A stretch of 64,000 bases of DNA from Aliikangiella marina (GTDB lineage: Bacteria > Pseudomonadota > Gammaproteobacteria > Enterobacterales > Kangiellaceae), in assembly GCF_007004765.1 (NCBI RefSeq), contig NZ_VIKR01000005.1:186001-250000 (forward strand). Reading direction: 5' to 3'. Of the stretch, positions 18,619-43,045 are shown piece by piece. Below the pieces are notes generated by a model. That model did no database searches, was not told the origin of the DNA, and was given only the letters and a program-made list of their open reading frames with translations. Every line of letters begins with the position of its first letter. Position 1 is the first letter of the stretch. Both the position numbers and the translations under genes were made by a program.

Positions 18619-18873
18619 TTAAAAGTCGACTATCTCAAAATGAGGGTTTTCGTTGATGACTTTCATCGACTTAACTCGATTCAAAACGACTTGCAGAGTC
18701 TTACCTTTCTCCTCAATCACGAGGCATTCGTCACGATTATTGTCAATGGTTACATCTAAAGCCTTGCCTTGGCAGGTACTCTCATCATCCAATTTGAGCG
18801 TTAAATCGAAGCCATACATACATGCGATTTCGACATAATCATGTACTGCACAATCGATAATGGGATTACTCAT
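18619..18873 (-). CDS. rof: Rho-binding antiterminator (Rof-like)
   Basis: An 84-residue protein of the Rof/YaeO type: IDCAVHDYVEIACMYGFDLTLKLDD followed by ECLVIEEKGKTLQVVLNRVKSM. E. coli Rof binds transcription terminator Rho and inhibits it. The sequence keeps the acidic Rho-facing surface in general character; exact contacts cannot be judged here. GGAG is 6 bases before the ATG. Single gene, between yheS and a divergently transcribed exported protein. Confidence 0.85.
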   Translation of the reverse strand: MSNPIIDCAVHDYVEIACMYGFDLTLKLDDESTCQGKALDVTIDNNRDECLVIEEKGKTLQVVLNRVKSMKVINENPHFEIVDF

Positions 18874-18959
18874 AGCTCTCCTCCTGCAACTAGCGTCTTT
18901 AAGTTAGCGGTTAAGGCACCTGACGGGTATTAACCTTGCTAAATTTGTGACTAATTAGT

Positions 18960-18989
18960 TTGTGTTTCGTTACATTGCTCAAATATAAT
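18960..18989 (+). promoter_or_regulatory. Candidate sigma70 promoter for the DUF4412-like gene
   Basis: TTGTGT at 18960-18965 and a consensus TATAAT at 18984-18989 with an 18-base spacer, about 130 bases upstream of the ATG at 19120. Confidence 0.4.
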
Positions 18990-19119
18990 CCGAGAGTCGA
19001 CTGCTTTTCCAATATATAGGGACTATTTAATCGATAGACCCTGATTGGCCAATAAGTTAGGATGTTCGACAAAACTTATACCAAAATTTCTTTTTCAATC
19101 TAAAAGCATGGAGGCTCCG

Positions 19120-19935
19120 ATGAAACGCGGAAACACCTTAATAGCGGGCTTTTTGTTCGCATCAATAGCCATCTTTCCAGTCTCGGCTGGAACAGAAATC
19201 AAGATGAAAATTACTGGACCTGACCGCTCACCTGGAAATTCCACGATGATGATAGACGGTGGCAAAATGAGAGTTGATACAGTTGATCCTGCCCAAGACG
19301 ATAGCACTCAACTGATCTTCGATAGCCAGACAAAAACCATGATAATGGCCGATGTGAATCAGCGAATGTACAATGTAATGGATCAAGCCTCACTTGCGCA
19401 GTTAAAAGCAAGAATGGATGCGGCGAAAAAGCAAATGGAAGCACAACTTGCAAATATGCCTCCTGAGCAGCGGGAAATGATGAAGAAAATGATGGCTGGA
19501 CGCATGGGAATGGCGGACGATTCGGCCCCTAAGCCAACAAAAAATATTGTCAAAACAGGAAAATCTGCTTCCGCAGCTGGATATGATTGTCAGATCCATG
19601 AGGTTTATTCTGGTCAAAAGAAACTCAGAGAGTTGTGTGTTACGCCGTGGGGAAAGATTAAAAACGGTGGAGAAATAAAGCAGTCACTGGAAGAAATGAA
19701 TCGTTTTTTTAGTGCTTTTCTCGACTCCATGAAGGGTATGATGCCTGCCGATGAAGAATCGCCGTTCGCCGAAATTGAAAAGTTAAATGGCTTTCCTGTC
19801 ATATTTAAAGAGTTTGAAAATGGACAATTATTTGAGACATCGACATTGCAATCAATTTCAAGTAAAGATTTATCCGCCGATATTTTTAAAGCACCTAAGG
19901 GATTTACCAAACAGTCTATGATGGAGGGGATGTAG
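19120..19935 (+). CDS. Exported DUF4412-like protein
   Basis: A 271-residue protein. The start at 19120 is fixed by GGAGG 5 bases upstream and a Sec signal peptide (MKRGNTLIAGFLFASIAIFPVSAG); an earlier in-frame start would bury it. The mature part resembles DUF4412-type periplasmic proteins: MKITGPDR, a strand-rich region (MMIDGGKMRVDT, DSQTKTMIMADV), a Met- and Gln-rich helix (about 80-125) and a C-terminal beta region with a cysteine pair (YDCQIH, ELCVT). Function unknown. An ABC exporter gene follows after about 105 bases and a stem-loop. Confidence 0.7.
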   Translation: MKRGNTLIAGFLFASIAIFPVSAGTEIKMKITGPDRSPGNSTMMIDGGKMRVDTVDPAQDDSTQLIFDSQTKTMIMADVNQRMYNVMDQASLAQLKARMDAAKKQMEAQLANMPPEQREMMKKMMAGRMGMADDSAPKPTKNIVKTGKSASAAGYDCQIHEVYSGQKKLRELCVTPWGKIKNGGEIKQSLEEMNRFFSAFLDSMKGMMPADEESPFAEIEKLNGFPVIFKEFENGQLFETSTLQSISSKDLSADIFKAPKGFTKQSMMEGM

Positions 19936-26172: not shown

Positions 26173-26190
26173 ATGTCATCAAACTGTCAT
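26173..26190 (+). promoter_or_regulatory. Strong candidate Pho box
   Basis: Two TGTCAT half-sites exactly 11 bases apart (26174 and 26185) with an A-rich spacer match about 16 of 18 consensus positions. A third degenerate unit (TGTAATC) follows at the next 11-base step. It lies 84 bases before the ATG of the repeat lipoprotein, a normal distance for PhoB activation. Confidence 0.7.
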
Positions 26191-26273
26191 CTTTTGTAAT
26201 CTTTTTGAAATTTACCTTCGCTACCCTACCCCAGTTTTTTTAACAATCTAATAAATCCGTTTTGGAGAATAAT

Positions 26274-29200
26274 ATGAAATTTACTCGATTGCTCTCAGTC
26301 GGTGCAGTGGCTGGCGTATTTGCGCTAACTGGCTGTGGTGGCGGAGACATTACCATTCAAGAAGGGGATGAAGTTGTTCAACCGCCAGTGGTTCAGCCGC
26401 CAGTTGGATTTCAATGTCCAAGTTTTGCGACTCAGCTAACCGCAATCGGTAGCTTTGACAACGTCTGTGAATTGTCAGGGACTTTAACTGCTAATGCGAC
26501 TCTATCTAATGATGCATTGTGGGTACTAAACGGAAGAGTTGCAGTTGGTGAAGATAGAGCCAACTCAGCAACCTTGAGTATCGAAGCCGGTACTACAATT
26601 ATGGGTCGTAGTGGTGATGACTTCTTAGTGGTTCGCCGTGACTCTCAAATCAATGCTGCAGGTACAGCGGCGGCGCCAATCACAATGACTTCTTTTGAGG
26701 ATGTTACTGGTGCACAAACAGGTATCGGCCAATGGGGCGGTTTAGTCCTTCTTGGTAACGCACCGGCAAATCTTTGCGATGGTGACGGTGATAATGTCGC
26801 TGACGCGACAGAGCTTGCTAACTGCTCAATTAACGCAGAAGGCGACGCGGGTCTTTACGGTGGAGACAATCCTAACGATGATTCAGGTACGCTTCGCTAT
26901 GTTGTTGTTAAACACGCAGGTAATGCACTTGGTTCAGGTGATGAACTTAACGGTATTACGTTTGCCGGTGTTGGTGATGCAACAGAAGTAGATTTCATTC
27001 AAGTTCACGAAAACCTTGACGACGGTGTCGAGTTTTTTGGTGGTACAGTAAATGTTAAACACGTTGTATTAACTGGCAACGGTGATGACAGCTTTGACTG
27101 GGCATTTGGCTGGAGTGGTCGTGCACAGTACGTATACATTCAACACAACGACGTATTCGCTAACCGCGGGTTTGAGTCTGATAACAGTGAAGACTTCCCA
27201 ACGGCAACACCCCTTACCGATCCAATGGTTTCTAACGTAACAATTGTTGGTGGTAATGTTCCTGATGAAGATTCAGAAGGTGTTTTACTTCGCCATGGTA
27301 CCGCAGGTCGATTACACAACTTTGTCATCACAGGTCCTGCCGGCATGGGTGAGTGTTTGGAAGTTGATAGCTTCCCTGAGACTCGTGCAAATGCGGCTTC
27401 TGGCGCGTTGATTATGACCAACTCTGTTGTGGCTTGTGACAACGGTGAAAACTTCAAAGGTAATGCAACGGATACATTAACAACTGAAGAATGGTTCTTA
27501 GGTCAATCAGGTAACTTAGCATTCGATGGCAGCGCTGCACTTAACCTAGATCTAAATGGTTACGTTCCATTGGTTGGTTCACCACTTTTAGGGGCTGGTA
27601 TTGACGCTTCAACGGTTGATGCTTGGTTCGATTCAACTGATTATATTGGTGCTTTCGATGGTACTAACAACTGGATGGAAGGTTGGACTGTTGGCGTTCG
27701 CGGCGGATTCCCAGCTGACGTTCAAAATGCATTACAGCAAGGTCTAGCGACTAACGCATCTGCTGAGTATCCTGAAATTACTGATAAGCCTGTTTACAAG
27801 CTTGCAACAGATACGACTTTTACTGCAGACGTTACGCTAACTAATGATGCTCACTGGGTATTAAAAGGTCGTACAGCGGTCGGTAACGACAATGCTGACA
27901 ATACGACGCTTTATATCGAAGCCGGAACAACTATCTTCGGTGAAACCGGAGACGACTTTTTAGTCGCTCGTCGTGGTTCGAAAATTGAAGCAGTTGGAAC
28001 GGTTGGTGCACCGATCGTAATGACTTCGGTTCAAGATGTAACTGGTCAAGAAACTGGCATTGGCCAATGGGGTGGATTAGTGCTTCTTGGGAACGCACCG
28101 GTTAACCTTTGTGACGGTAATGGCGATGACCTTGCTGATGCGACTGAGTTAGCGAACTGTGGTATCAATGCAGAGGGTGATGCCGGCCTATACGGTGGTG
28201 ATGACCCGACTGATAACTCTGGTACTTTAAAATTCGTTATTGTTAAGCACGCTGGTAACTCTTTAGGCTCTGGCGATGAACTTAACGGTATCTCTTTCGC
28301 TGGTGTCGGTTCTGGTACAACAGTTGACTACATCCAAGTTCACGAAAATCTTGACGATGGTGTTGAGTTCTTCGGTGGTACCGTTGATGTCCGTCACGTA
28401 GTTCTAACGGGTAACGGCGACGACAGCTTTGATTGGGCATTCGGTTGGACTGGTCGTGCACAATTCGTTTATGTACAGCATAACGATACAGCTGCTAATC
28501 GTGGTTTTGAGTCTGACAACAGTGAAGACTTCCCAGGTGCAGCTCCGCTAACTTCACCAACGGTTGCTAACGTAACAGTTCGTGGTAACAATGCACCAAG
28601 CGAAGACTCTGAAGGTGTACTGCTTCGTCACGGTACTGCGGGTATCTTACGCAACTTCGTTATCACCGGACCTGCCGGAATGGGTGAGTGTTTAGAAATT
28701 GACAGCTTCCCAGAAACTCGTGCTAACGCAGAAGACGGTAGCCTTATCATGACTCACTCAGTAGTGGCTTGTGAGAACGGCGAGAACTTCAAAGGTACGG
28801 CAAATACTTCTGGCGATACTGTTGAAGATTGGTTCCTCGCGCAAACGGGTAACTCAGCTTTCGACAATGCAGAAGCATTGCAAATGTTAGCAGACGGTTT
28901 CACGCCAAAATCAGGTTCGCCATTACTTGGTGCTGGCTATGATTTATCGGCCGATGACGACTGGTTCAAAGCGACTGATTACATCGGTGCTTTCGACGGT
29001 AACACTAACTGGATGGACGGTTGGGCTTTCGGTATCGATACTGGTATCCCAAGCAACGTAACTGCAGCTGATGCTCAAGGTCTTGCAACTGACGCTTCTG
29101 CAACTTACCCAGCAATTACCGACAAGCCTGTTTACTTGTTAAACACAGACGTTGTCTTCACAACTGATGTTGTTTTAACTAACGATAAGCACTGGATCAT

Positions 29201-30356
29201 GAAGGGTCGTACTGCAGTTGGCAATGACAATGCAGATAACACCACGCTTTACATCGAGCCTGGTACAACTTTGATCGGCGAAACGGGTGATGACTTCTTA
29301 GTTGCCCGTCGTGGTTCGAAAATCGAAGCACTTGGTTCAGCTTCTTCGCCAATCATTATGACTTCTATCCAAGACATGACTGGTCAAGCAACCGGTATTG
29401 GTCAATGGGGTGGATTAGTACTTCTGGGCAACGCACCAGTAAACCTCTGTGACGGTAACGGTGATGACGTTGCCGATGCGACTGAGTTAGCAAACTGCGG
29501 AATCAATGCAGAAGGTGATGCTGGCCTTTATGGTGGTGACGACCCTGCAGATAACTCTGGAACGCTTCGTTACGTTGTTGTTAAGCATGCAGGTAACGCA
29601 CTCGGTTCAGGTGATGAGCTTAACGGTATTTCATTCGCTGGTGTTGGTAACGGTACCACGGTTGATTACATCCAAGTTCACGAAAACCTTGACGATGGTG
29701 TTGAGTTCTTCGGTGGTACGGTTGACGTACGTCACTTAGTTCTAACAGCTAACGGTGACGACAGCTTCGACTGGGCATTCGGTTGGACGGGTCGTGCACA
29801 ATATGTATTGATTAAGCACGATGCAGCTTTTGCAAACCGCGGTATTGAGGGTGACAACAGCGAAGACTTCCCAGCTGCAACGCCGATGACTAAACCAACG
29901 GTTGCTAACTTCACAATCATTGGTGCGGCTAACACTGATTCAGAAGGTGTATTGTTACGTCACGGTACTTCAGGTGACCTTTACAACTTCATTATCACTG
30001 GTCCAGCTGGCATGGGTGAATGTTTAGAAATCGATAGCTTCGCTGAAACTCAAGCCAACGCGGAAGCGGGTGAGTTAACCATGATTAACTCGGTGGTTGC
30101 TTGTGAAAATGGTGAAAACTTCAAAGGTACAGCCAATACCTCTGGCGATACAGTTGAAGCTTGGTTCCTTGCACAAACTGGTAATGCGGTAGAAGCAACT
30201 CAAGCTGATGCCGTAACAGGTTATGTCACTAACACCGCTAACGCTGCTGCAGACATGAATGCAGTTGATAGTTGGTTCGACACCACTGACTTTGTTGGTG
30301 CCGTCGGTTCAGACAATGATTGGACTGCGGGTTGGGTAACAGTTGGATTAGAGTAA
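26274..30356 (+). CDS. Giant triple-repeat beta-helix lipoprotein
   Basis: A 1360-residue lipoprotein. The ATG at 26274 follows GGAG by 6 bases; the signal ends in a lipobox (FALTGCGGGD). The mature chain is three consecutive ~445-residue copies. Each has a predicted beta-helix with conserved stations WGGLVLLGNAP, YGGD(N/D)P, HAGN(A/S)LGSGDELNGI, QVHENLDDGVEFFGG, GDDSFDWAFGW and LLRHGT. Each copy has a Cys-bracketed loop (CDGDGDNVADATELANC type) that fits an EF-hand-like DxDxDGxxxxxE calcium site. Comparable proteins are known in Bacteroidetes and gammaproteobacteria; no function is established. It precedes a TonB receptor and has Pho boxes, so a surface-exposed capture role is inferred. Confidence 0.8.
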   Translation: MKFTRLLSVGAVAGVFALTGCGGGDITIQEGDEVVQPPVVQPPVGFQCPSFATQLTAIGSFDNVCELSGTLTANATLSNDALWVLNGRVAVGEDRANSATLSIEAGTTIMGRSGDDFLVVRRDSQINAAGTAAAPITMTSFEDVTGAQTGIGQWGGLVLLGNAPANLCDGDGDNVADATELANCSINAEGDAGLYGGDNPNDDSGTLRYVVVKHAGNALGSGDELNGITFAGVGDATEVDFIQVHENLDDGVEFFGGTVNVKHVVLTGNGDDSFDWAFGWSGRAQYVYIQHNDVFANRGFESDNSEDFPTATPLTDPMVSNVTIVGGNVPDEDSEGVLLRHGTAGRLHNFVITGPAGMGECLEVDSFPETRANAASGALIMTNSVVACDNGENFKGNATDTLTTEEWFLGQSGNLAFDGSAALNLDLNGYVPLVGSPLLGAGIDASTVDAWFDSTDYIGAFDGTNNWMEGWTVGVRGGFPADVQNALQQGLATNASAEYPEITDKPVYKLATDTTFTADVTLTNDAHWVLKGRTAVGNDNADNTTLYIEAGTTIFGETGDDFLVARRGSKIEAVGTVGAPIVMTSVQDVTGQETGIGQWGGLVLLGNAPVNLCDGNGDDLADATELANCGINAEGDAGLYGGDDPTDNSGTLKFVIVKHAGNSLGSGDELNGISFAGVGSGTTVDYIQVHENLDDGVEFFGGTVDVRHVVLTGNGDDSFDWAFGWTGRAQFVYVQHNDTAANRGFESDNSEDFPGAAPLTSPTVANVTVRGNNAPSEDSEGVLLRHGTAGILRNFVITGPAGMGECLEIDSFPETRANAEDGSLIMTHSVVACENGENFKGTANTSGDTVEDWFLAQTGNSAFDNAEALQMLADGFTPKSGSPLLGAGYDLSADDDWFKATDYIGAFDGNTNWMDGWAFGIDTGIPSNVTAADAQGLATDASATYPAITDKPVYLLNTDVVFTTDVVLTNDKHWIMKGRTAVGNDNADNTTLYIEPGTTLIGETGDDFLVARRGSKIEALGSASSPIIMTSIQDMTGQATGIGQWGGLVLLGNAPVNLCDGNGDDVADATELANCGINAEGDAGLYGGDDPADNSGTLRYVVVKHAGNALGSGDELNGISFAGVGNGTTVDYIQVHENLDDGVEFFGGTVDVRHLVLTANGDDSFDWAFGWTGRAQYVLIKHDAAFANRGIEGDNSEDFPAATPMTKPTVANFTIIGAANTDSEGVLLRHGTSGDLYNFIITGPAGMGECLEIDSFAETQANAEAGELTMINSVVACENGENFKGTANTSGDTVEAWFLAQTGNAVEATQADAVTGYVTNTANAAADMNAVDSWFDTTDFVGAVGSDNDWTAGWVTVGLE
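26508..27842 (+). repeat. Protein-level repeat unit 1 of the lipoprotein
   Basis: About 445 codons, from the NDALWVL station to the next NDAHWVL. It is the most divergent of the three, e.g. MGRSGDDFLVVRRDSQI against FGETGDDFLVARRGSKI in unit 2. Confidence 0.8.
27843..29180 (+). repeat. Protein-level repeat unit 2 of the lipoprotein
   Basis: About 446 codons. Over long stretches nearly identical in protein to unit 3 but with many synonymous base changes, so the duplication is not recent and the protein sequence is under selection. Confidence 0.8.
29181..30356 (+). repeat. Protein-level repeat unit 3 of the lipoprotein
   Basis: About 391 codons, ending at the stop codon; the last part after the LAQTGN station is shortened compared with units 1 and 2. 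Confidence 0.8.
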
Positions 30357-30512: not shown

Positions 30513-33191
30513 ATGATAAAAAAACACAAATCACAAATGCCAAGCAAGGTTTACCGAGCGGTTTGCTTGGCGTTAATGGCAGGTGGGTTTTCTTTAGGGG
30601 TAAACGCGGCTGAAGCAGAAGCGGCTGAAGAAGATTTACAAGATATAGAAATGGAAGAGACGGTTGTCACTGGCAGTCGTTTGCAAGGAAGTGCACAAGC
30701 AGTATTAGGTGAGCGTAAAGATCAAGCGTTTGTTGCTGATATTTTAGGTTCAGAACAAATTTCTCGAACGGGTGACGGCGATGCTGCATCTGCATTGCGT
30801 CGGGTTACAGGTTTAACTTTAGTCGACGGAAAGTTTATTTATATTCGTGGTCTCGGTGAAAGATACTCAAGCACATTATTAAATGCGGCTTCGGTTCCTA
30901 GTCCCGATCCGACGCGTTCGGTTTTGCCACTCGATTTATTTCCGTCGTCGGTTATTGAAAGTTTAAGTGTCCAAAAATCTTATTCTCCTGACTTACCTGC
31001 ATATTTTGCGGGTGGTAATGTCAATATCCGTACAAAGTCGATTCCTAATGAAAGCATTTTTAAAATTGGTGGCAAGTTAGGCTACAACTTTGATAATGAA
31101 AAATCGCCTTGGTATGCAGGTGGCGGTGACGATTCTATCGGTTCTGATGATGGTACTCGTGAATTACCGGCTGCTTTTGAACAAGCGTTTCAAGCGGGTG
31201 ATATTAGCACCTTAAGTGGCCCAGAGTCAGTGGCTTTATTAGGGACTTTAAACAGAGACATTTCTGCTAGAGCAGAATCAGTTGATCCCGATATTGGCTT
31301 TAACGTGACTTTTGGTGACAAGATCGATGTTGCTGACGAGTCTCAATTTGGCTTTCTTGCTGCGGTTTCCTATAAGAACGAATGGCAAGTTGGCAATGAG
31401 CGAAATGTTAATAACTTAGCAAGCTCAGGCGGCCAAATTCGAATCAATGAGTTTGCAGACGGTGCTTCAACTGAACATGAAGTAAAGTGGAGTGGTCTCC
31501 TTAATTTCGGTTATGACTTTGATGCAAATCATAGCTTCGAATTCAATAACATTTACTTAAAAGATACTAAAGATCGTTTACGTGATCGTCAGTTCGAAAA
31601 CACAAACACGATTAATGAGCCTGATGAGTCTCGTCGTAAAGTCGACATTCTTTACGAAGAGCGAGAACTCTTCTCTAATCAATTAAAAGGTCGCCACAAC
31701 TTCCCTGAATGGTACAACGTTGGCGTAGACTGGTACTACAGTCGCAGTGAAACTGAACGTTTTGCACCCGGCGGATTTGAAACAACTTTCCGGTTGGATA
31801 GAGCGGGTAGCGGTTTTACATCACAACTAGCGCGTGATATTAACACGACCTACTCATTCCAAAAATTAGACGACGAAGTTGAAAACTGGGGGGGCAATGT
31901 TTCCATTCCTTTCTACTTCGACGATTGGAACTTAGAGTTAAAAGCCGGTGTTGACTTTATTGATAAGCAGCGTAACGCTGAGAATATTGGAATTACCGTA
32001 CAAACTTTCTCAATCCCAGCCCAGTTTTTGCCCGGTAGTGATTTCTCTCAGATCTTTTCTGATGGCAACCTAAGTCAGGCGGATTTTACGGTACGCTTAG
32101 ACGATACAACCGCCGATGGTGATAAGTATATCGCAGCAACATTAAACGACGCATATTACTTTATGGCGAGTGCAGAAATTGGTGCTGAGTGGAGAGTTAC
32201 AGGCGGATTGCGTTACGAAGATTTCCGTCAGGTTTCAGTGCCATTCCAACCACATTCCAATTTCTTCTCGGTTGAAGGTGAAGAAATAGCCGAATTACCA
32301 TTAGCCGAAGATGATGTGTTTGGTTCGTTTGCTGTCACTTACTCAATCGATTCTGAAATGCAGCTGCGTTTTAACGTCAGTCAAACAACGATTCGTCCTG
32401 ACTTCCGTGATGTTTCAACTAGCTTCTATATTGATCCATTAACGGAGTTCTTGGTCCGTGGTTCGACTTCTTTGCAAGGTTCAGATATTGATAACTTCGA
32501 TTTCCGTTGGGAATGGTATATGGAAACTGGTGAGAACCTATCGGTTGCCTTTTTCTACAAAGACATCACTAACCCAATTGAACAAATTGAATTACCAAGT
32601 GCAACTGAGGGCGCACCGCAGCTATTAACTGCTAACGCAAGTGACGGTGAAGTCTTCGGTCTTGAAGTAGAATTCTTAAAAGATTTCTCTTTTTTGGGTG
32701 ACGAGTATGCTAACTTCTTTGCTTCTGGTAACTTCACAGTATCTGAGTCAGAGGTAAATATTTGTTCTGATAACGATCCCAATACATTGTGTTTGTTTGA
32801 AGAGCAATTAAAAGAAGCTTTGAATACTACTGAAAGTGTTACTTCAGTAATCACAAACAACAGCCGTCGTTTAATCGGACACTCAGAGTGGGTTGTTAAC
32901 TTACAGCTGGGTTGGGACTCACTTGATGGTGAACACGCCGCGACCCTTGTTTACAATGTTTTTGGTCCACGAATCATTGTTCCAGGTGTTAATGGCTTCG
33001 AAGATGCTGAAGAGTTGTCATTCGATTCACTTGATGCCGTTTATACTTGGTATCCGACCTATGATTCAACCTTCAAAGTTAAGTTGAAAAACATTCTTGA
33101 TGAAGAAAAGACGATTAGGCAGGAAGGTGTCGATATATTAAGAGAAACCGTTGGTACTGAATTCTCAGTTGAATACAGCCATGAATTCTAA
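30513..33191 (+). CDS. TonB-dependent outer membrane receptor
   Basis: An 892-residue receptor. Signal peptide: VYRAVCLALMAGGFSLGVNAAEA. A TonB-box-like MEETVVTG lies at the mature N-terminus, then the plug (about 60-185) with DALRRVTGLTLV-type sequence, IYIRGLGERYSSTLLNA and VNIRTKS. The 22-strand barrel fills the rest and ends in Phe (VEYSHEF), as outer membrane proteins do. The family uses the proton motive force through TonB to import large or scarce ligands. The plug resembles receptors annotated generally as TonB-dependent receptor, without ligand. Position between the repeat lipoprotein and a TonB operon with Pho boxes points to a phosphorus-containing ligand. Confidence 0.9.
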   Translation: MIKKHKSQMPSKVYRAVCLALMAGGFSLGVNAAEAEAAEEDLQDIEMEETVVTGSRLQGSAQAVLGERKDQAFVADILGSEQISRTGDGDAASALRRVTGLTLVDGKFIYIRGLGERYSSTLLNAASVPSPDPTRSVLPLDLFPSSVIESLSVQKSYSPDLPAYFAGGNVNIRTKSIPNESIFKIGGKLGYNFDNEKSPWYAGGGDDSIGSDDGTRELPAAFEQAFQAGDISTLSGPESVALLGTLNRDISARAESVDPDIGFNVTFGDKIDVADESQFGFLAAVSYKNEWQVGNERNVNNLASSGGQIRINEFADGASTEHEVKWSGLLNFGYDFDANHSFEFNNIYLKDTKDRLRDRQFENTNTINEPDESRRKVDILYEERELFSNQLKGRHNFPEWYNVGVDWYYSRSETERFAPGGFETTFRLDRAGSGFTSQLARDINTTYSFQKLDDEVENWGGNVSIPFYFDDWNLELKAGVDFIDKQRNAENIGITVQTFSIPAQFLPGSDFSQIFSDGNLSQADFTVRLDDTTADGDKYIAATLNDAYYFMASAEIGAEWRVTGGLRYEDFRQVSVPFQPHSNFFSVEGEEIAELPLAEDDVFGSFAVTYSIDSEMQLRFNVSQTTIRPDFRDVSTSFYIDPLTEFLVRGSTSLQGSDIDNFDFRWEWYMETGENLSVAFFYKDITNPIEQIELPSATEGAPQLLTANASDGEVFGLEVEFLKDFSFLGDEYANFFASGNFTVSESEVNICSDNDPNTLCLFEEQLKEALNTTESVTSVITNNSRRLIGHSEWVVNLQLGWDSLDGEHAATLVYNVFGPRIIVPGVNGFEDAEELSFDSLDAVYTWYPTYDSTFKVKLKNILDEEKTIRQEGVDILRETVGTEFSVEYSHEF

Positions 33192-33212
33192 CCGCTGAGT
33201 AGATTGAGCTTT

Positions 33213-33243
33213 AAAAAAGGGAAACCAAGGGTTTCCCTTTTTT
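33213..33243 (+). terminator. Intrinsic terminator after the TonB receptor
   Basis: A 14-bp stem aaaaaagggaaacc/ggtttccctttttt with a 3-base loop and a T-run, 22 bases after the stop codon. A classical Rho-independent terminator. Confidence 0.9.
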
Positions 33244-33377
33244 ATTATCTATTTTTTCTGTATTCGATTTTCCCTCGATTTATGACAAAAAATCGGTTTC
33301 GGACTATTACTAAGCGAGATTTTTTAACTTGCTGATAAGTATAGAAAAAATCTTAAATATTACGGGCTTTCTTATAA

Positions 33378-33395
33378 GTGTCATAAAAGTGTAAA
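33378..33395 (+). promoter_or_regulatory. Candidate Pho box, distal
   Basis: TGTCAT at 33379 and TGTAAA at 33390, 11 bases apart with an AAAA spacer; about 14 of 18 positions fit the PhoB consensus. Confidence 0.4.
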
Positions 33396-33544
33396 AAAAT
33401 TGAAATATTTCATCTCTAGAATTGGCGGTTGATTTTTAGCGTCAATTGTCTTGGATTCAGGTTTTTCGGCGCGAAAACTCATTGAATCAATTTAAACAGA
33501 TTGTAATAAATGACTCCTTTATACCTTTTTCGGGTTACATAGGA

Positions 33545-33562
33545 ATGTCATTTTTTTGTCAT
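33545..33562 (+). promoter_or_regulatory. Candidate Pho box, proximal
   Basis: Two perfect TGTCAT half-sites at 33546 and 33557, exactly 11 bases apart, joined by a T-rich spacer (about 14/18). It lies 131 bases before the DUF3450 start codon. Confidence 0.55.
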
Positions 33563-33692: not shown

Positions 33693-34469
33693 ATGAATAA
33701 ACCTAAGCGGTTTTTAATTATTTTGTCGGCATGTTTTGCGACAACGATAATGACCAATTCAGTCGCAACTGAAGTTAACTTAAAACCAGTGGTTGATCAA
33801 AGTGCCAAGATTAACGAGTCTGCCGCGCGTTCTCAGCAAAAAATTGACCGACTAGCTGAGCAAATCGACAATAAATTACAAGCTTTTAAAGCAGTCAACA
33901 AAGAGATTGACGGTCTTAAAGTTTATAACGCGCAAATGTCTCGCCAAATCGAGAACCAGCTACTTCAAATGCAATCACTATCTGACTCTATAGAAAAAGT
34001 TAGCGTTATCGAACGACAAATTACACCACTAATGTTACGGATGATTGATGGTTTAAAAGACTTTGTTGCATTGGATGTACCTTTCTTAGAAGAAGAGCGT
34101 AAAACTCGAATCGACTCATTAGAGACAATGATGGATCGCGCGGATGTTGCAGTGTCTGAAAAGTTCCGTCGCGTGCTAGAAGCCTATCAAATTGAAGTTG
34201 ATTACGGTCGTACTATTGAAGCATACAGCGGATTAGCTAGCTTAGGTAACGGTAGTGGTGAGCAAGAAGTCAACTATTTGCGCATTGGACGTGTTGCTTT
34301 GGTATATCAAACTCGCGATCGCAAGCAAATGGGTATCTGGAATCAGAATGAGCGTCGTTGGGATCCACTTGATGACGATTTTAGATCGCATATCTTAAAA
34401 GGTTTGCGAATGGCAAAAAAACAAATGGCGCCTGACATGATTGTCGTGCCCGTATCAGCCGCAGAATAG
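33693..34469 (+). CDS. DUF3450 protein, periplasmic coiled coil of the TonB system
   Basis: A 258-residue DUF3450 protein. Start at the ATG at 33693 with AGAGG upstream and a signal peptide (FLIILSACFATTIMTNSVA); a GTG 12 bases earlier overlaps the ribosome site. Residues about 35-130 form a long coiled coil (AARSQQKIDRLAEQIDN, MSRQIENQLLQMQSLSDSIEKV). The C-terminal half has the family GRTIEAYSGL and YLRIGRVALVYQTRD. DUF3450 genes regularly precede TtpC-ExbB-ExbD-TonB sets. First gene of a six-gene operon; 15 bases before the next. Confidence 0.9.
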   Translation: MNKPKRFLIILSACFATTIMTNSVATEVNLKPVVDQSAKINESAARSQQKIDRLAEQIDNKLQAFKAVNKEIDGLKVYNAQMSRQIENQLLQMQSLSDSIEKVSVIERQITPLMLRMIDGLKDFVALDVPFLEEERKTRIDSLETMMDRADVAVSEKFRRVLEAYQIEVDYGRTIEAYSGLASLGNGSGEQEVNYLRIGRVALVYQTRDRKQMGIWNQNERRWDPLDDDFRSHILKGLRMAKKQMAPDMIVVPVSAAE

Positions 34470-34484: not shown

Positions 34485-35843
34485 ATGAAAACTCTATTTA
34501 AAGTTATCGGTCTGGCTGGCGTACTTGCATCGAGTCAGCTAATAGCCGCAGAAAAAAGTGTAAACCTTGACGACTTGTTAAAGAAACTCGAGCAAGGTCA
34601 ATATCAACAATCACAAGAAAACAAGCGTCGTGAACAAGAGTTTGTGCAAAAACGAACTGAACAAGATCGTTTATTAAAAGACGCTGTTGCGGATAAGCGC
34701 AAAGAAGAAAGAAAATCGGAAGAGCTCGAAGTCGCTTCGCGTGATAACGATGTGAAAATTGAAAATTTAGAAAGAGCGCTTGATGAACGTCTTGGTTCAT
34801 TGAAAGAGCTATTCGGTGTATTACAACAAGTTGCCGGTGACACTACTAGCAAGTTCTCTAACTCAGTTATTTCTGCTGAGTACCCAGGTCGTGGTGAGTT
34901 TCTATCTAACTTGGCGCAAAAAATGGGTAACTCGTCTGAACTTGCTTCTATTGAAGAGATCGAGCGTGTTTGGTTTGAACTTCAACGCGAAATGACAGAA
35001 TCAGGCAAAGTGAGTCGATTTGAAACTGACGTTGTTAAGACTGATGGTGAAAAATCAAAACAACCTGTTATTCGTATCGGAACGTTCAACCTAGTTTCAG
35101 GTGGTAATTACTTAGAGTGGAATACGGATACACAGTCGGCTGCGGTAATGACTCGTCAACCAGTTTCACGTTTCCATGATACCGTTGCTGAACTTGAATC
35201 AACTACTTCTGGATACGCAGGCTTTGCTCTCGATCCAACCGGCGGTAACATTCTTGGCGCACTCATCCAAACGCCGAGTGACTTAGAGCGCATCGACCAA
35301 GGTGGTGCAGTAGGCTACGTTATTCTAGCGCTTGGTTTAATTGCTGTTTTGATTGCTTTAGAAAGATACATTGTTTTGTTTATCACTGAGCAAAAAGTGA
35401 AACGCCAATTAAAATCAACGGAACTTCGTGAAGATAACCCATTAGGCCGCGTACTCATGGTGAAAGAAAAGTATAAAGATGTCGCTTCCGATACTTTAGA
35501 GCTTAAACTCAGCGAAGCAATCTTAAAAGAAATGCCGAAGCTTACGCGTAGTATTAATTTTATCAAAATTATCTCGGTGGTGGCACCACTACTTGGTCTT
35601 CTAGGAACGGTCACGGGTATGATCAAAACCTTCCAAATGATTACCTTGTTTGGTGCAGGCGACCCTCAGATTATGGCTGGTGGTATCTCGCAAGCATTAG
35701 TGACTACAGTGCAAGGCTTGATCGTAGCGATTCCAACCGTGTTGTTATTCACATGGTTAAACACTCGAAGCAAAAATATTATTCACATTTTGCAAGAGCA
35801 AAGTGCTGGAATTATTGCTGAGCGTTCTGAACAGGAGCACTAA
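34485..35843 (+). CDS. TtpC-like MotA/TolQ/ExbB family protein with periplasmic coiled coil
   Basis: A 452-residue protein. Signal peptide (VIGLAGVLASSQLIAA), then a charged coiled coil (about 25-115: KRREQEFVQKRTEQDRLLKDAV), a periplasmic domain, and a C-terminal TolQ/ExbB channel (about 275-445) with three membrane spans, including PLLGLLGTVTGMIKTFQ and ISQALVTTVQGLIVAIPTVLL. This layout is that of TtpC, an extra component known to be needed by TonB2-type systems of Vibrio. The neighbour ExbB is a separate, shorter gene, so the complex should contain both. Confidence 0.88.
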   Translation: MKTLFKVIGLAGVLASSQLIAAEKSVNLDDLLKKLEQGQYQQSQENKRREQEFVQKRTEQDRLLKDAVADKRKEERKSEELEVASRDNDVKIENLERALDERLGSLKELFGVLQQVAGDTTSKFSNSVISAEYPGRGEFLSNLAQKMGNSSELASIEEIERVWFELQREMTESGKVSRFETDVVKTDGEKSKQPVIRIGTFNLVSGGNYLEWNTDTQSAAVMTRQPVSRFHDTVAELESTTSGYAGFALDPTGGNILGALIQTPSDLERIDQGGAVGYVILALGLIAVLIALERYIVLFITEQKVKRQLKSTELREDNPLGRVLMVKEKYKDVASDTLELKLSEAILKEMPKLTRSINFIKIISVVAPLLGLLGTVTGMIKTFQMITLFGAGDPQIMAGGISQALVTTVQGLIVAIPTVLLFTWLNTRSKNIIHILQEQSAGIIAERSEQEH

Positions 35844-35845
35844 TC

Positions 35846-36373
35846 GTGCTGAGTATTAGCGAAACAATTGATTTAATTCGCGAGTTTCTCGATGCCGGTG
35901 GTGTGGTTCTTAATTACATTGGCATACTCATTTTTGTTATGTGGATGTTAATTTTAGAGCGCGTGTTTTATGTAACACATACCTATAAAGTGGAAAAGAA
36001 AGCGATTATTGCGCAATGGAAAGGGCGCGCCGAGAGAGAATCTTGGAATGCCATCCAAATTCGCGATGCGATAATTTCTCGCGCGAAAATGTCATTGAAT
36101 CGTTCGCTGTCAACCATCCAAGCGTTTGTTGCCTTATGCCCACTTTTGGGTTTGCTCGGTACGGTGACTGGAATGATTGAAGTGTTTGACGTCATGGCAA
36201 CGTCGGGCTCTGGTAATGCTCGCTCAATGGCGAGTGGCGTGTCTAAAGCGACCATTCCGACGATGGCTGGAATGGTCGGTGCTTTGTCCGGCGTTTTTGC
36301 GTCAACTTGGCTGAAGCGGACTGCAAAAACAGAAACCGAGCTATTAGAAGATAAATTAACCCTGGACCATTAA
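35846..36373 (+). CDS. exbB: ExbB-type proton channel subunit
   Basis: A 175-residue MotA/TolQ/ExbB protein starting with GTG 2 bases after the TtpC-like stop and with AGGAG upstream. Three spans: about 20-40 (LNYIGILIFVMWMLILERVF), about 90-115 (FVALCPLLGLLGTVTGMIEVF) and about 125-155 (SKATIPTMAGMVGALSGVFA). Works with ExbD in the inner membrane to harness proton flow for TonB. The short form is typical of ExbB2. Confidence 0.92.
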   Translation: MLSISETIDLIREFLDAGGVVLNYIGILIFVMWMLILERVFYVTHTYKVEKKAIIAQWKGRAERESWNAIQIRDAIISRAKMSLNRSLSTIQAFVALCPLLGLLGTVTGMIEVFDVMATSGSGNARSMASGVSKATIPTMAGMVGALSGVFASTWLKRTAKTETELLEDKLTLDH

Positions 36374-36404: not shown

Positions 36405-36815
36405 ATGCGTGCCCCTTTTGCAAAATTAATGCAAGAAGAGGAAGAGTCAGAAATTAATATGACACCGATGTTGGATGTTGTATTCATCATGCTGATCTTC
36501 TTCATCGTGACGGCTTCATTTGTTAAAGAAGCAGGGATTGAAGTTAATCGTCCAGAAGCGGCAACTGCCGTCAAGAAAGAACGCGCTAATATTCTGATTG
36601 CGATCAGTGATAAAGGCGAAATTTGGATTAACAAGCGTCGTGTTGATGTGCGCGCGGTTCAAGCTAATGTTGAACGTCTGAAGGCTGAAAACCCACAAGG
36701 TACTGTGGTTATTCAAGCTGATAAAAATTCGAAGACCGATACTTTAATTAAAGTAATGGATGCGTCACGCGCCGCAGGCGTTTTTGATGTCTCGATAGCC
36801 GCGCAAGAGATGTAA
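36405..36815 (+). CDS. exbD: ExbD-type biopolymer transport protein
   Basis: A 136-residue ExbD/TolR protein: a short cytoplasmic tail, then INMTPMLDVVFIMLIFFIVTA, where the Asp in LDVVF is the conserved proton-path residue, and a periplasmic domain (IAISDKGEIWINKRRVDVRAV, VVIQADKNSKTDTLIKVMD). Lies between exbB and tonB with gaps of 31 and 1 bases. Confidence 0.95.
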   Translation: MRAPFAKLMQEEEESEINMTPMLDVVFIMLIFFIVTASFVKEAGIEVNRPEAATAVKKERANILIAISDKGEIWINKRRVDVRAVQANVERLKAENPQGTVVIQADKNSKTDTLIKVMDASRAAGVFDVSIAAQEM

Positions 36816-36816: not shown

Positions 36817-37419
36817 ATGACTCGTTTTATTAATGCAGCTTTAATTGCATTTTTTATTACCGGTGGACTCTTTTTGGGTATGCGCGAGCTAATCATCGGC
36901 AGCGATATTGATATTAAAGATCCGGTGAAAGGTCCTGTTATCGACTTTGTACGTCTCAAGCGAGACGAAACTGTTGAGCGAAAAAAGCCTAAGCCAAAGA
37001 AGCCACCAAAACCAGAGCCACAACCACAAATGGAACAACCACCAATGCAGGCGGAAGATTTTAGTGCTGATGCAACAAGCATGGCTTTTAGCGGTCTTGA
37101 TGTCGCTGAGGGCAGTGGTGGTGGATTGGATTTGGGCTCTGGGGATGGAGACCTAATCAATACCTTAAAAGTTAATGCAATGTATCCACGTCGTGCTCTA
37201 TCGAGAGGCATTGAGGGTTACGTTATCGTGAAGTTTACTGTGACCAGACAAGGTACCGTTCGTGATCCTGTTGTAGTGGAAGCGGAACCTGCAGGGATTT
37301 TTAATCAAGCAGCAATAGAGGCAGCTAAAAAGTATAAATATAAAGCCAAAGAGGTAGATGGTAAGGCGGTAGAAGTACCGAACATCTATGAAAAAATCAC
37401 CTTTAAATTGGATAAATAA
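36817..37419 (+). CDS. tonB: TonB energy transducer
   Basis: A 200-residue TonB protein. One membrane anchor (about 4-22, INAALIAFFITGGLFLGM), a Pro/Lys-rich span (about 48-75: KKPKPKKPPKPEPQPQ), a Gly-rich linker and the C-terminal domain (about 108-200) with YPRRALSRGIEGYVIVKFTV, the YP and EGYV marks of TonB. It is short, as TonB2 proteins are. It should couple this ExbBD complex to the receptor upstream. Confidence 0.94.
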   Translation: MTRFINAALIAFFITGGLFLGMRELIIGSDIDIKDPVKGPVIDFVRLKRDETVERKKPKPKKPPKPEPQPQMEQPPMQAEDFSADATSMAFSGLDVAEGSGGGLDLGSGDGDLINTLKVNAMYPRRALSRGIEGYVIVKFTVTRQGTVRDPVVVEAEPAGIFNQAAIEAAKKYKYKAKEVDGKAVEVPNIYEKITFKLDK

Positions 37420-37422: not shown

Positions 37423-38751
37423 ATGAGCAAATTTACCTTTATCAAACTCGTTATTGCAGTTGTGTTGTTCAATCCGGGATTTATCATTGGTCTTCAATCA
37501 ACCGATACCTTTGGAAATCTCGCTTACGCAGCCGAAAAGAAAACGCCAAAGAAAACTAGGCGTACGCCGGCAATGCGGGAGAAAATCTATAATCAAATCG
37601 CGCGAGCACAGAAGTTTCTTGATGAAGGTAATAAAGCCGAAAGTGTTGAAGTAATCGATCGCTTAAAGCGTCGTATGAAACAATTAAATTCCTACGAGAA
37701 AGCAAAAGTATGGCAGTTTGAAGGTTTTATGCACTTTAACGATAACGATTTAATGGCCGCCGTTAAGTCTTTTGAAAAAGTCATTGCGGAAGAAAACATT
37801 CCAGAAGCGTTCGAGTTATCAACGCTTTACGGTATCGCACAAATCTACATGCAAGCACAAGATTTTGGAAATGCACTGTTATACATTGATCGTTGGGCTG
37901 ATCTCAAAGGCGAAATGACTGATAAGTCGCATGCTTTTAAAGCGAGAATCTTGTATGCACAAAAGGACTGGCAAGGTAGTCTCAAAAGTATCGATAATGC
38001 TATCGCTTATCGTGAAGCAGAAAAGAAAGTGGCTAAGGAAAACTGGTTAAGCTTAAAGCGTGCGCTTCATTTTGAGCTCAAGCAACCTAAAAAGGTCACT
38101 GAAGTTTCAGAGAAACTCGTACGATTATTTCCTCAGAAGGGTAAATACTGGGTAGAGCTTGCCAATATGTATGGTGAAACGAACCAAGTTCGTAAGCAGT
38201 TGGCAGTGATGGAAGCCGCCTATCAGCAAGGATTTATTGAGAAAAAGTCGGATTTTAAAGCATTAGCGCAACTCTATTACTTCAATGGTGCGCCATTTAA
38301 AGCTGCAACAATTTTAACAGAACAGTTAGCAGCGGGAACCTTGGAAGAAGATATCCAGACTTTGCGGTTCCTTGCTCAGGCATGGTCATCAGCGAAAGAC
38401 CACGCAAAAGCGATTCCGGTGCTAAAGAGCGCTAGCAAAATTGCAGAAGACGGCAATATGGATGCAAGATTAGTAGAAGTTTATATCAACCTCGAAGACT
38501 GGGATAACGCTATCAAAGCGGGACAAGACGCGATTAAAAAGGGTGAGCTGAAGAATCCTGGAAATGTCCACGTTTGGATGGGAAAAGCAAGATACAACCT
38601 AAAACAATATGCTTCTGCCATTAAAAGCTTTCAAATGGCAAAAAAAGAGCAAAGCGTTAAGAAAACAGCGGATCAGTGGTTGCGGTTTGTGGAGAAAGAA
38701 AAGCGTAATGAAGAGCGCTTAAAATTAGCGCAGTCGTCTGTAGGCGCTTAA
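37423..38751 (+). CDS. Exported TPR protein of the TonB operon
   Basis: A 442-residue protein with an N-terminal signal or anchor (LVIAVVLFNPGFIIGL) and many TPR-like helical pairs, e.g. FLDEGNKAESVEVIDRLKRRM, FMHFNDNDLMAAVKSFEKVI and ARYNLKQYASAIKSFQMAKKE. TPR genes often close DUF3450/TtpC/ExbBD/TonB operons; the protein is thought to assist the complex, but its role is not established. Begins 3 bases after tonB and is followed by a terminator. Confidence 0.88.
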   Translation: MSKFTFIKLVIAVVLFNPGFIIGLQSTDTFGNLAYAAEKKTPKKTRRTPAMREKIYNQIARAQKFLDEGNKAESVEVIDRLKRRMKQLNSYEKAKVWQFEGFMHFNDNDLMAAVKSFEKVIAEENIPEAFELSTLYGIAQIYMQAQDFGNALLYIDRWADLKGEMTDKSHAFKARILYAQKDWQGSLKSIDNAIAYREAEKKVAKENWLSLKRALHFELKQPKKVTEVSEKLVRLFPQKGKYWVELANMYGETNQVRKQLAVMEAAYQQGFIEKKSDFKALAQLYYFNGAPFKAATILTEQLAAGTLEEDIQTLRFLAQAWSSAKDHAKAIPVLKSASKIAEDGNMDARLVEVYINLEDWDNAIKAGQDAIKKGELKNPGNVHVWMGKARYNLKQYASAIKSFQMAKKEQSVKKTADQWLRFVEKEKRNEERLKLAQSSVGA

Positions 38752-38956: not shown

Positions 38957-41080
38957 ATGAGCGATAAGAAACAAACACAAACTGAAGCCAGCTCTCCGTC
39001 AGAAGATAAGCTGATTACCGAATTCGATAACAATTGCTTTATCAATCGTGAAGTCAGTCATATGCTGTTCAACGCTCGAGTTCTGGAGCAGTCTCTCGAT
39101 CAGCGACATCCTTTGCTGGAACGACTTAAATTTTTGTTAATTTTTAGCTCTAACATGGATGAGTTTTTTGAAGTCCGAATCGCTAAATTAAAACGTCAAG
39201 TATTATTCGGTAGAGAGATATTTGGGCCGGATGGTCTTTCGCCAAGAGCGACTTTGCGGAAGTTAAGTGAAATGTGTCACGCCTATGTGCAGAAACAATA
39301 TCAAATTTTAAATGATGTGTTGCTGCCACAGTTAGAAAAAGAAGATATTTATTTTATTAAGCGAGAAGATTGGACTAAGCCACAAAAAGAATGGATCAAA
39401 GGTTATTTTGAAAAAGAAGTCGCCCCGATCATTAGTCCAATTGCACTCGATCCATCACACCCTTTCCCCAAACTAGTTAACAAAAGCCTTAACTTTATCG
39501 TTACTTTAAAGGGAAAGGACGCGTTTGGTCGTGAGTCGCGAATGGCAATTGTTCCTGCGCCACGTTCATTACCGAGATTGATTAAATTACCGTCGGACGA
39601 TGAGAATACTCGTGATGAGTTTGTCTTTCTATCAGCAATTATTCATGAGTATGTATCGCACTTTTTCCATGGAATGAAAGCAACTGGTTGTTATCAATTT
39701 AGAGTAACCCGGAACTCTGACCTTGATGTTAACGAAGAAGAAATGGAAGATATTGCGGCTGAGGTGAAAGGCAAACTACTCAATCGGCGATATGGTAATG
39801 CTGTGCGCTTGGAAGTCGTTGAGAACTGTCCACAACATATTAAAGATTTCTTATTAGAGAAGTATGAGCTAACTGAGAAAGATCTCTATGAGACTAACGG
39901 GCCGGTGAATCTTCAAAGAATGTTTTCAGTGTTTGGAATGCTTGAGAAGCCACAGTTAGAATATCCAGAGTTTTCACCTGAGTTACCGAGTAGTTTGGAT
40001 TCTACGAGTAATTTATTTGACTCGATTAAAGCACAAGATTATTTATTGCTTCACCCCTACAGTTCTTTTAACCCTGTGCTGGATTTACTCCGTCAAGCTG
40101 CGAACGATCCCAATGTTATGTCGATTAAACAAACGTTATATCGGGTTGGACATGATTCAGAAATTGTCAATATACTAGTTGAGGCGGCGCGACGAGGTAA
40201 GGAAGTCACTGTTGTTGTTGAGTTAAGAGCGCGCTTTGATGAGCAAGAAAATTTATGGTTAGCGAGTCGTTTGCAAGAAGCCGGCGCTGTCGTTTGTTAT
40301 GGTGTTGTTGGCTATAAAACGCATGCTAAGATGATGATGATTCTGCGCAAAGAAGATGGCGAGTATTGTCGATATATTCATTTAGGTACCGGAAATTATC
40401 ACGCTCGTAATGCGAGGCTTTACACCGACTATAGTTTATTTAGTGCAGATAAAAATCTTTGCGAAGATGTTCATAATATTTTTCAACAGTTAACCGGCAT
40501 GGGTAAAACACTGCCGATGAATTCTGTCTTTAATGCACCGTTTACGTTGAAGAAAAAAATATTGAGGCTAATCGATGGTGAAATAGAGGCTGCTAAATCC
40601 GGAAAGTCGGCAAGAATTATTTTTAAGGCTAATTCGATCACTGAGAAGGAAGTGATTAAGCGATTGTATATCGCCTCGCAAGCTGGAGTAAAAATTGATC
40701 TCATCATACGCGGTATTTGTGTTCTGCGCCCTGGAATGCCGGGAATATCAGAAAATATTACCGTTCAATCTATTATCGGAAGATTTCTTGAGCATACGCG
40801 CGCTTTTTATTTTGAGAATGCTGAAAACAAAGTTTATGCATCTAGTGCTGATTTGATGGATAGAAATCTTAAGAATCGAGTCGAAGTGTGTTTTCCCATT
40901 CTTTCACCCAAGTTAAGAGATAGGGTAATCAATGATCTAATGATGTTTATTGAAGACGAAGGGCAATCTTGGATCCTCGATCAACATGGAGATTACCGCT
41001 TGATAACCGATAAACCTAACCAAAAGTTTGTGCAACAAATCCTACTTGATAAACACTGTGAGACAGCAAAGGCTGAGTAG
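38957..41080 (+). CDS. ppk1: Polyphosphate kinase 1
   Basis: A 707-residue PPK1 that makes long-chain polyphosphate from ATP. Typical features are FINREVSHMLFNARVLEQ and FSSNMDEFFEVRIAKLKRQV at the N-terminus, and in the phospholipase-D-like catalytic half KTHAKMMMI (His456, expected phospho-histidine) and HLGTGNYHARNARLYTDYSL (His475, His482). Length agrees with the ~690-720 of the family. It lies between a TonB operon with Pho boxes and convergent ppx. No good Pho box was found in its own upstream region. Confidence 0.97.
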   Translation: MSDKKQTQTEASSPSEDKLITEFDNNCFINREVSHMLFNARVLEQSLDQRHPLLERLKFLLIFSSNMDEFFEVRIAKLKRQVLFGREIFGPDGLSPRATLRKLSEMCHAYVQKQYQILNDVLLPQLEKEDIYFIKREDWTKPQKEWIKGYFEKEVAPIISPIALDPSHPFPKLVNKSLNFIVTLKGKDAFGRESRMAIVPAPRSLPRLIKLPSDDENTRDEFVFLSAIIHEYVSHFFHGMKATGCYQFRVTRNSDLDVNEEEMEDIAAEVKGKLLNRRYGNAVRLEVVENCPQHIKDFLLEKYELTEKDLYETNGPVNLQRMFSVFGMLEKPQLEYPEFSPELPSSLDSTSNLFDSIKAQDYLLLHPYSSFNPVLDLLRQAANDPNVMSIKQTLYRVGHDSEIVNILVEAARRGKEVTVVVELRARFDEQENLWLASRLQEAGAVVCYGVVGYKTHAKMMMILRKEDGEYCRYIHLGTGNYHARNARLYTDYSLFSADKNLCEDVHNIFQQLTGMGKTLPMNSVFNAPFTLKKKILRLIDGEIEAAKSGKSARIIFKANSITEKEVIKRLYIASQAGVKIDLIIRGICVLRPGMPGISENITVQSIIGRFLEHTRAFYFENAENKVYASSADLMDRNLKNRVEVCFPILSPKLRDRVINDLMMFIEDEGQSWILDQHGDYRLITDKPNQKFVQQILLDKHCETAKAE

Positions 41081-41545: not shown

Positions 41546-43045
41546 CTAAACTAAGCTAATTTTCACGTTAAAATCGGCTTTACTCCAATACATAGACTCT
41601 AAAGCCAGTGCATGTTGAATCAAGGGATGTTTACTTAGCCACTTTTCTTCAACACATAGTATAATCGTACTCGACTTAAATTCAACGTTGAGATGGTTGC
41701 TTCGATTTGGTTTGCCGTTTTTTCCAATAATCGAAGCAAGCCTCAGTAAAAAAATTACTTGAACAAGCTTATACTTTTCTTTAACCGTTAAATCGATTAA
41801 GTCGAAAGGCGCAAGATTAACTTTTCGTCGTTGGTTTGCGACAATAGCGGCGAGAATTTTCCTCTCTCTTATCGAAAAACCACTCAGTTCTGAGTTGCGA
41901 ATTAAATAAGCACTATGGTTTTGGAATTGACTGTGATTAATCGCAAGACCTATGCGACAGCATTGTGCACTCCATTTCAATAGCTTTAAATGAAAGCCTG
42001 AAAGCGGATATTTACTGGTTGTATTTTTAGCGAGCTTCTTACAGATTCGAGCGAGTAAATTGCTTCGGAATTCGGGAACATTGTATCTTCTACAAATAGC
42101 AGTGATACTTCTTTGCCTAACATCCTCACTTTTCAAGCGACCTAAGAGATCATAAAGGATCCCTTCTCGTAATCCTCCTCGAGAAATATGAAGTTTTTTG
42201 ATGTTAAGGGATTTGAATATAGCCATAGTAATGGCTAGTCCAGGAACAATAGTTTTTTGCCTAGAAGGTTTCAAGCCGACGATATCAAGTTCGTGCATCG
42301 ATTTGAATTCTAATACTTGCTGCTTAAGCGCTTTTAGGCCTTTGTAGGTAATTCCTTCTTTGGTGAGACCTTGCTCCACCAGAATTCGTTCAAGGGCCTT
42401 GAAAGTTCCTGCCGATCCGATTGAATAGTCCCATGTTGATTCATGATAATCGGATTTAATATTGGATAACTCGAACTTTGCTGCTCGGACTGCACGAGAA
42501 AAATACTTGTTGTTGATTTCCAAGTTAGGGAAATAACGCTGAAATGCGATACACCCCATGCGTAAACTCTCGGCTTGTTTAAGTTTAAAGTTCTTACCGA
42601 TAATAAACTCTGTTGATCCGCCGCCAATATCAATCACTAAGTTTTTAGTAAACTGATCCAGACCACTCCAACTGTGATTGACTCCGAGAAAGATCAATCG
42701 TGCTTCCTCAATACCCGATACGATATCAATACGGTTAACACCGAGAACTTTTTCGATTTCATCCACATATTCTTGAGCATTTATTGCCGCTCTTAAGGTA
42801 TTAGTACCTACAATGCGAATGTTGTCTTTTGGTATAGCTTCTATCCTTTGAGCAAAACGCGCAATACAGTCGAGTCCGCGTTGCATGGCATCAGGGTGGA
42901 TTCCATGGGTTTTATCTAATCCTTCTGCGAGCATAACCTTTTCAGAGGTCGATTCGAGAATTTTGATTTCATGGTGCTCAAGCGCCGCGGTAAGCATGTG
43001 AAAACTATTGGAGCCTAAGTCAATGGTTGCATAAAGTTCGCGCAT
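41546..43045 (-). CDS. ppx: Exopolyphosphatase / guanosine pentaphosphatase family (Ppx/GppA)
   Basis: A 499-residue Ppx/GppA enzyme that removes terminal phosphate from polyphosphate. It has the sugar-kinase-like phosphate loops ATIDLGSNSFHML and LVIDIGGGSTEFIIG, plus RIVGTNTLRAA and SGIEEARLIFLGV with the catalytic acidic residue. The C-terminal helical HD-like part (about 310-495) is present, so it is the long form. Convergent to ppk1; together they set polyphosphate content. GppA activity on pppGpp cannot be excluded. Confidence 0.92.
   Translation of the reverse strand: MRELYATIDLGSNSFHMLTAALEHHEIKILESTSEKVMLAEGLDKTHGIHPDAMQRGLDCIARFAQRIEAIPKDNIRIVGTNTLRAAINAQEYVDEIEKVLGVNRIDIVSGIEEARLIFLGVNHSWSGLDQFTKNLVIDIGGGSTEFIIGKNFKLKQAESLRMGCIAFQRYFPNLEINNKYFSRAVRAAKFELSNIKSDYHESTWDYSIGSAGTFKALERILVEQGLTKEGITYKGLKALKQQVLEFKSMHELDIVGLKPSRQKTIVPGLAITMAIFKSLNIKKLHISRGGLREGILYDLLGRLKSEDVRQRSITAICRRYNVPEFRSNLLARICKKLAKNTTSKYPLSGFHLKLLKWSAQCCRIGLAINHSQFQNHSAYLIRNSELSGFSIRERKILAAIVANQRRKVNLAPFDLIDLTVKEKYKLVQVIFLLRLASIIGKNGKPNRSNHLNVEFKSSTIILCVEEKWLSKHPLIQHALALESMYWSKADFNVKISLV

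Follow-up and report, generated by a model that had tools for sequence, protein, structure and literature searches.

A near-consensus Pho box in Aliikangiella marina and a probable PhoB-controlled outer-membrane operon for phosphorus acquisition

The DNA analysed here is a 64-kb stretch of the Aliikangiella marina genome (hereafter the window), in which a near-consensus Pho box precedes the gene of a triple-repeat lipoprotein. We explain this box best as part of a PhoB-dependent promoter in control of an outer-membrane operon for phosphorus acquisition, with a probability of roughly 0.8. Taken separately, regulation of the lipoprotein promoter by PhoB appears, from the sequence, to be highly probable, and the acquisition of phosphorus by the locus via TonB is rather likely. 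The features of the locus are collected in Table 1.

Table 1. Features of the lipoprotein-receptor locus and its neighbours (window positions)
Feature	Position	Strand	Remark
Near-consensus Pho box, upstream pair of the four-unit array	26173..26190	+	1 of 2 exact TGTCAT-N5-TGTCAT sites of the genome
Promoter-proximal degenerate putative PhoB pair	26195..26211	+	TGTAAT 26195-26200, TGAAAT 26206-26211, pitch 11
Predicted -10 element TACCCT	26222..26227	+	exactly 10 bases past last PhoB unit, 46 bases 5' of ATG
Lipoprotein, ElpS-type	26274..30356	+	three repeats of ~445 aa, lipobox LTGC
TonB-dependent outer-membrane receptor, partner of lipoprotein	30513..33191	+	Plug domain, TBDT fold
Intrinsic terminator closing the lipoprotein-receptor operon	33212..33244	+	15-bp perfect stem and T-rich tail
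Putative PhoB promoter of the Exb/TonB operon	33379..33422	+	TGTCAT 33379, TGTAAA 33390, TGAAAT 33401, N10, -10 TAGAAT 33417-33422
Second near-consensus Pho box ATGTCATTTTTTTGTCAT, in Exb/TonB operon leader	33545..33562	+	exact units 33546-33562
DUF3450 protein, TtpB-like	33693..34469	+	literature link PMC6957404
ExbB-family protein, TtpC-like	34485..35843	+	long N-terminal part
Second ExbB-family protein	35846..36373	+	
ExbD	36405..36815	+	
TonB	36817..37419	+	
TPR protein, TtpD-like	37423..38751	+	
Polyphosphate kinase 1 (ppk)	38957..41080	+	neighbour, no Pho box claimed
Ppx/GppA exopolyphosphatase-type protein	41546..43045	-	neighbour

The box 26173-26190, ATGTCATCAAACTGTCAT on the forward strand, agrees with the PhoB consensus CTGTCATAWAWCTGTCAY at 16 of 18 positions and is very probably a real PhoB-binding site, judging by the sequence. 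It encloses two exact TGTCAT units with a pitch of 11 bases (starts 26174 and 26185), and 83 bases separate it from the lipoprotein ATG at 26274; the repeat, its spacing, the approximate agreement with the consensus and the short distance to the start codon had all been put forward in an earlier note on this DNA and are borne out. The same note had proposed a degenerate third unit, which is present (TGTAAT at 26195) but in another register: a unit 3 in 11-base register with unit 2 was rejected, since the measured step is 10. Unit 4 (TGAAAT, start 26206) lies 11 bases beyond unit 3, and the array before the lipoprotein gene comprises four CTGTCAT-like direct repeats in two pairs of 11-base pitch, exact at 26174/26185 and degenerate at 26195/26206. 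The proximal promoter reads TGTAAT-N5-TGAAAT-N10-TACCCT (26195-26227), with the last unit in the place of a -35 element about 10 bases before the -10. The near-consensus pair is thus the distal box, and the conserved promoter geometry is carried by the weaker downstream pair. The degeneracy of this proximal pair and the step of 10 instead of 11 between units 2 and 3 count against the model, as does the TACCCT at 26222 with only 3 of the 6 consensus -10 bases.

Pattern scans were run on the whole genome (5.34 Mb in 8 contigs). The exact sequence TGTCAT-N5-TGTCAT occurs twice, at 26174 and 33546, both in this locus. Exact TGTCAT pairs with spacers of 0 to 28 amount to 27 in the genome, about one per spacing, so the raw count of two N5 pairs is not strong evidence, and we rejected it as proof. 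Among the pairs at other spacings, 18 of the 20 examined lie inside ORFs, and both N5 pairs lie upstream of adjacent, functionally linked operons. When two mismatches to CTGTCAT-N4-CTGTCAT are allowed, the window contains 3 sites where 0.38 are expected, a number that no shuffle out of 100 reaches; on this count the low chance of such a match supposed in the earlier note holds, the plain count of exact pairs being unremarkable. With at most one mismatch, 20 sites were found in the genome, some of them inside genes, against 12 in the reversed control; because of these in-gene matches and this control, single weak sites were not trusted. Near-match sites were located 77 bases upstream of phoB, about 80 bases upstream of pstS, before an alkaline phosphatase gene and before a calcineurin-type phosphoesterase gene, and the genome encodes a PhoB-family protein above the curated cut-off. 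The pattern TGTMAY-N5-TGNMAY-N10-TANNNT, whose relaxed TGNMAY form was chosen after this site had been seen, occurs twice in the genome (before pstS and before the lipoprotein gene) and 0 times in the reversed control. Equal scores at many unrelated places of the genome had been named in advance as the result that would speak against the box; the scan did not yield this result, exact matches being found at this locus alone and the next-best sites including those before phoB, pstS, the alkaline phosphatase gene and the PhoD-linked receptor gene, besides others inside genes. A Pho-box-like site at C1:399372 (L003) of the same genome lies between the genes of a PhoD-like phosphatase and of a TonB receptor with a carboxypeptidase regulatory domain, the latter a candidate for a second phosphorus-linked receptor.

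A position-weight-matrix check, also proposed beforehand, was run on the window and selected further stretches of the same genome with a 33-base matrix built from 42 non-redundant promoters of relatives (own genome and own family left out). The downstream half of the array (26195-26227) ranks first in the window with 22.1 bits; the positive controls pstS and phoB score 31.6 and 23.0 bits, and the best score in 108 kb of other DNA of this genome is 12.5 bits. This test is not circular, because the site fails the strict rule by which the training set was picked. The near-consensus pair 26173-26190 scores 11.7 bits, a low value explained by the lack of a -10 at the right distance from this distal box. 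The array of the Exb operon (33390-33422) obtains 17.4 bits, on a par with an in-gene site at 46610-46642 of chance level (17.5 bits).

The promoter was then considered in relatives, which share ancestry, so that the counts are not independent events: at the level of the order, TGTMAY-N10-TANNNT is found in 21 of 28 lipoprotein promoters (shuffle mean 0.34, maximum 5/28 in 300 sets) and in 6 of 8 DUF3450 promoters (shuffle mean 0.09, maximum 2). In the set of named relatives (78 loci), the same pattern occurs in 41/75 lipoprotein promoters and 33/41 DUF3450 promoters, and in 0/70 of the receptor intergenic regions taken as control. There, the spacing from half-site to TANNNT has its main peaks solely at N10 and N21 (10+11), and the unit-to-unit distances peak at 11, 22, 33 and 55. 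Of 86 non-redundant lipoprotein regions, 51 contain the two-unit N5/N10 form; none of the other spacings tried exceeds 4, and the antisense strand gives 0. In Pleionea-type relatives the equivalent place is taken by TGTCAT-N5-TGAAAC or TGCAAC, followed by N10-TACYCT. The box 26173-26190 thus very probably belongs to a PhoB promoter conserved across many marine bacteria, and the dozens of natural PhoB promoters with this exact geometry would constitute a clean set.

The receptor gene follows the lipoprotein gene in all 27 order-level and all 78 named loci. No separate Pho box was found directly 5' of the receptor gene, which is reached from the lipoprotein promoter, and an Rfam scan of the window for a riboswitch or similar RNA element gave no match. 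The lipoprotein had no match in a scan of Pfam and NCBIfam, and a PDB sequence search with lipoprotein and receptor returned no meaningful relatives. The first lipoprotein repeat is predicted with high confidence to be a right-handed parallel beta-helix (pLDDT 88.9, pTM 0.90), for which VIA-align gives NosD, phage tailspikes, alginate epimerases and lyases as the nearest solved folds (Z about 20-23) and Foldseek alone gives weak matches; a fold shared with such proteins does not reveal what the lipoprotein does. The receptor model (pLDDT 80) has the standard fold of TonB-dependent transporters, and its closest solved structures are iron-chelate receptors, which may only mirror what has been solved. 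Among named relatives, Pleionea species come closest, with 72-78% identity in the first repeat. The number of lipoprotein repeats ranges from 1 to 3 (window; loci L146, L147, L156 and L158). In Alteromonadales, the repeats within one protein are 69-78% alike and each is 58-63% alike to the same repeat of the window protein, a pattern that points to repeated duplication or to concerted evolution.

Downstream, the window contains the six genes of a TonB2-type set in order (DUF3450, two ExbB-like, ExbD, TonB and TPR), which recurs in relatives and lies 5' or 3' of the lipoprotein-receptor pair in many of them. By general correspondence to the TonB2 system, the large ExbB protein is probably TtpC-like and the TPR protein probably TtpD-like. 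The exact box at 33546 follows the -10 of this operon at a distance of 123 bases. Lacking a -10 of its own in the canonical position, it was rejected as the main promoter, also because of the better three-unit promoter upstream; a perfect 9-bp inverted repeat (TTTGAAGTT/AACTTCAAA) follows the box (33545-33589). Three Pleionea-type loci (L142, L143 and L145) show long inverted repeats between receptor and DUF3450 genes, at the expected place of the Exb promoter, resembling a mobile or structured intergenic element, and the stretch immediately 5' of their DUF3450 gene yielded no canonical Pho array. Beyond the polyphosphate genes of Table 1, about 5 kb past the ppx-type gene, lies a putative Na/Pi cotransporter-like protein (48136-49917), named by eye from its sequence.

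Linkage to phosphate genes was observed in the relatives. In 43 of the 78 named loci the pair adjoins phoB-phoR (PhoB identity of at least 47%), and pstC-A-B stands beside it in several Rheinheimera-type loci. The Alteromonas macleodii plasmid pBGP9 (239 kb; NZ_OX359244.1, L263, positions 4804-19485) carries phoB, phoR, a PstS-like gene, a 2OG-Fe(II) oxygenase, the lipoprotein (annotated as "hypothetical protein"), the receptor, DUF3450, ExbB, ExbB, ExbD and TonB in one run. The lipoprotein is also present on Pseudoalteromonas records of 0.8-0.9 Mb listed as plasmids.

From the boxes, their geometry and conservation, the operons, the gene families and the phoBR and pst linkage, we infer PhoB binding, induction at low phosphate, the nature of the substrate and the direction of transport as follows. 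Under phosphate starvation, PhoR would phosphorylate PhoB, and PhoB dimers would occupy the tandem units 26174-26190 and 26195-26211. The promoter-proximal pair would stand in for the -35 and bring RNA polymerase to the TACCCT at 26222, so that the surface lipoprotein and the TonB-dependent receptor would be transcribed as far as the terminator at 33212. The second PhoB promoter (33379-33422) would drive the DUF3450-ExbB-ExbB-ExbD-TonB-TPR genes as a dedicated energizer. At the cell surface, the beta-helix lipoprotein may bind or process a substrate that contains phosphorus and pass it to the receptor; TonB would power the import and PstSCAB would take phosphate onward.

The explanation that survives best beside this one accepts PhoB control and disputes the import of phosphorus: the lipoprotein would activate or anchor secreted phosphatases, or the pair would import a metal or a carbon source needed in phosphate starvation. 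We consider it less likely. In Caulobacter, overproduction of ElpS raises extracellular alkaline phosphatase activity and ElpS itself is no phosphatase; the gene of its linked receptor is reported to be constitutive and intracellular phosphate to be unchanged, which counts against our main reading (PMC2996285). The resemblance of the predicted beta-helix to polysaccharide lyases, epimerases and NosD also fits this alternative, as does the nearness of the receptor to iron-chelate receptors, if this is more than a bias of the solved set. However, the presence of a TonB energizer of its own, controlled in the same way, favours transport, and the linkage with phoBR, pst and PstS-like genes points to phosphorus. 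It is very improbable that the boxes serve another OmpR/PhoB-family regulator that uses similar direct repeats. At least 9 further full-length OmpR-family regulators, which match the PhoB model below its cut-off, are encoded in the genome, but the same unit and spacing stand before phoB and pstS, and the regulator gene that relatives have next to the locus is phoB. Finally, a chance match without regulatory role, for which the ordinary number of exact pairs speaks, is extremely improbable in view of the position, the paired occurrence before two linked operons, the exact N10 geometry, the conservation in dozens of relatives and the phoBR neighbourhood.

Going further than PhoB-controlled phosphorus acquisition, we advance tentatively, and with the odds somewhat against it, the idea of a self-contained and partly plasmid-borne "Pho island" (phoBR, PstS-like protein, 2OG-oxygenase, repeat lipoprotein, receptor and private Exb/TonB motor). 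With it, marine gammaproteobacteria might use TonB to move phosphate or a phosphorylated compound actively across the outer membrane, in replacement of a passive phosphate porin, and the lipoprotein might represent a new class of surface beta-helix that binds or releases phosphorus. Much of the sea is phosphorus-limited for growth and, to our knowledge, the passage of phosphorus compounds through the outer membrane of Alteromonas-like bacteria is poorly known. A widespread family of "hypothetical proteins" and an orphan-looking TonB system are now tied by evidence to the phosphate regulon, and the naming of the regulated promoters base by base makes this role testable.

Among known systems, the closest promoter is that of E. 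coli phoA (TGTCAT-N5-TGTCAC-N10-TATAGT), which has the same geometry as the window promoter (TGTMAY-N5-TGNMAY-N10-TANNNT). In contrast to phoA, the window has two tandem pairs, the distal one consensus and the proximal one degenerate, with a 10-base step between them.

The gene pair recalls ElpS (CC_0170) and CC_0171 of Caulobacter, a lipoprotein followed by a TonB-dependent receptor; the window likewise has an ElpS-family lipoprotein and then its receptor, for which homology to the ElpS/CC0171 pair and not identity with ElpS is claimed. ElpS is induced in phosphate starvation (PMC2996285); for the window lipoprotein, the promoter speaks for the same. Homologues from GC-rich genomes (34-37% identity over one repeat), compared instead of CC_0170 itself, lie upstream of gspC-D-E-F, the position described for CC_0170/0171 (PMC2996285), and one of their loci has a PstS gene nearby. 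The window lipoprotein has three repeats against one in ElpS, and type II secretion genes, which stand beside the GC-rich homologue L251, do not adjoin the window pair; instead, the latter has a dedicated Exb/TonB operon with its own putative PhoB promoter. This T2SS position was not taken as essential because the source paper finds it in some species only (PMC2996285).

The energizer resembles the Vibrio TonB2 system, in which DUF3450 (TtpB) is likewise encoded beside Exb/TonB genes, and which is induced by iron limitation and serves iron uptake (PMC6957404). Unlike it, the window set has PhoB boxes before it and is associated with a phosphate-type receptor, and PhoB boxes at a TonB2-type energizer suggest a role in phosphorus rather than iron. 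In the open-access literature, as distinct from subscription journals, we found no description of a gammaproteobacterial PhoB-controlled TonB phosphate system. The PhoB regulon of Caulobacter, as presented in the passages of PMC11208175 considered here, includes TonB receptors that are believed to take up phosphate donors; for these receptors the passages describe no co-regulated dedicated TonB energizer, whereas the window has a putative one.
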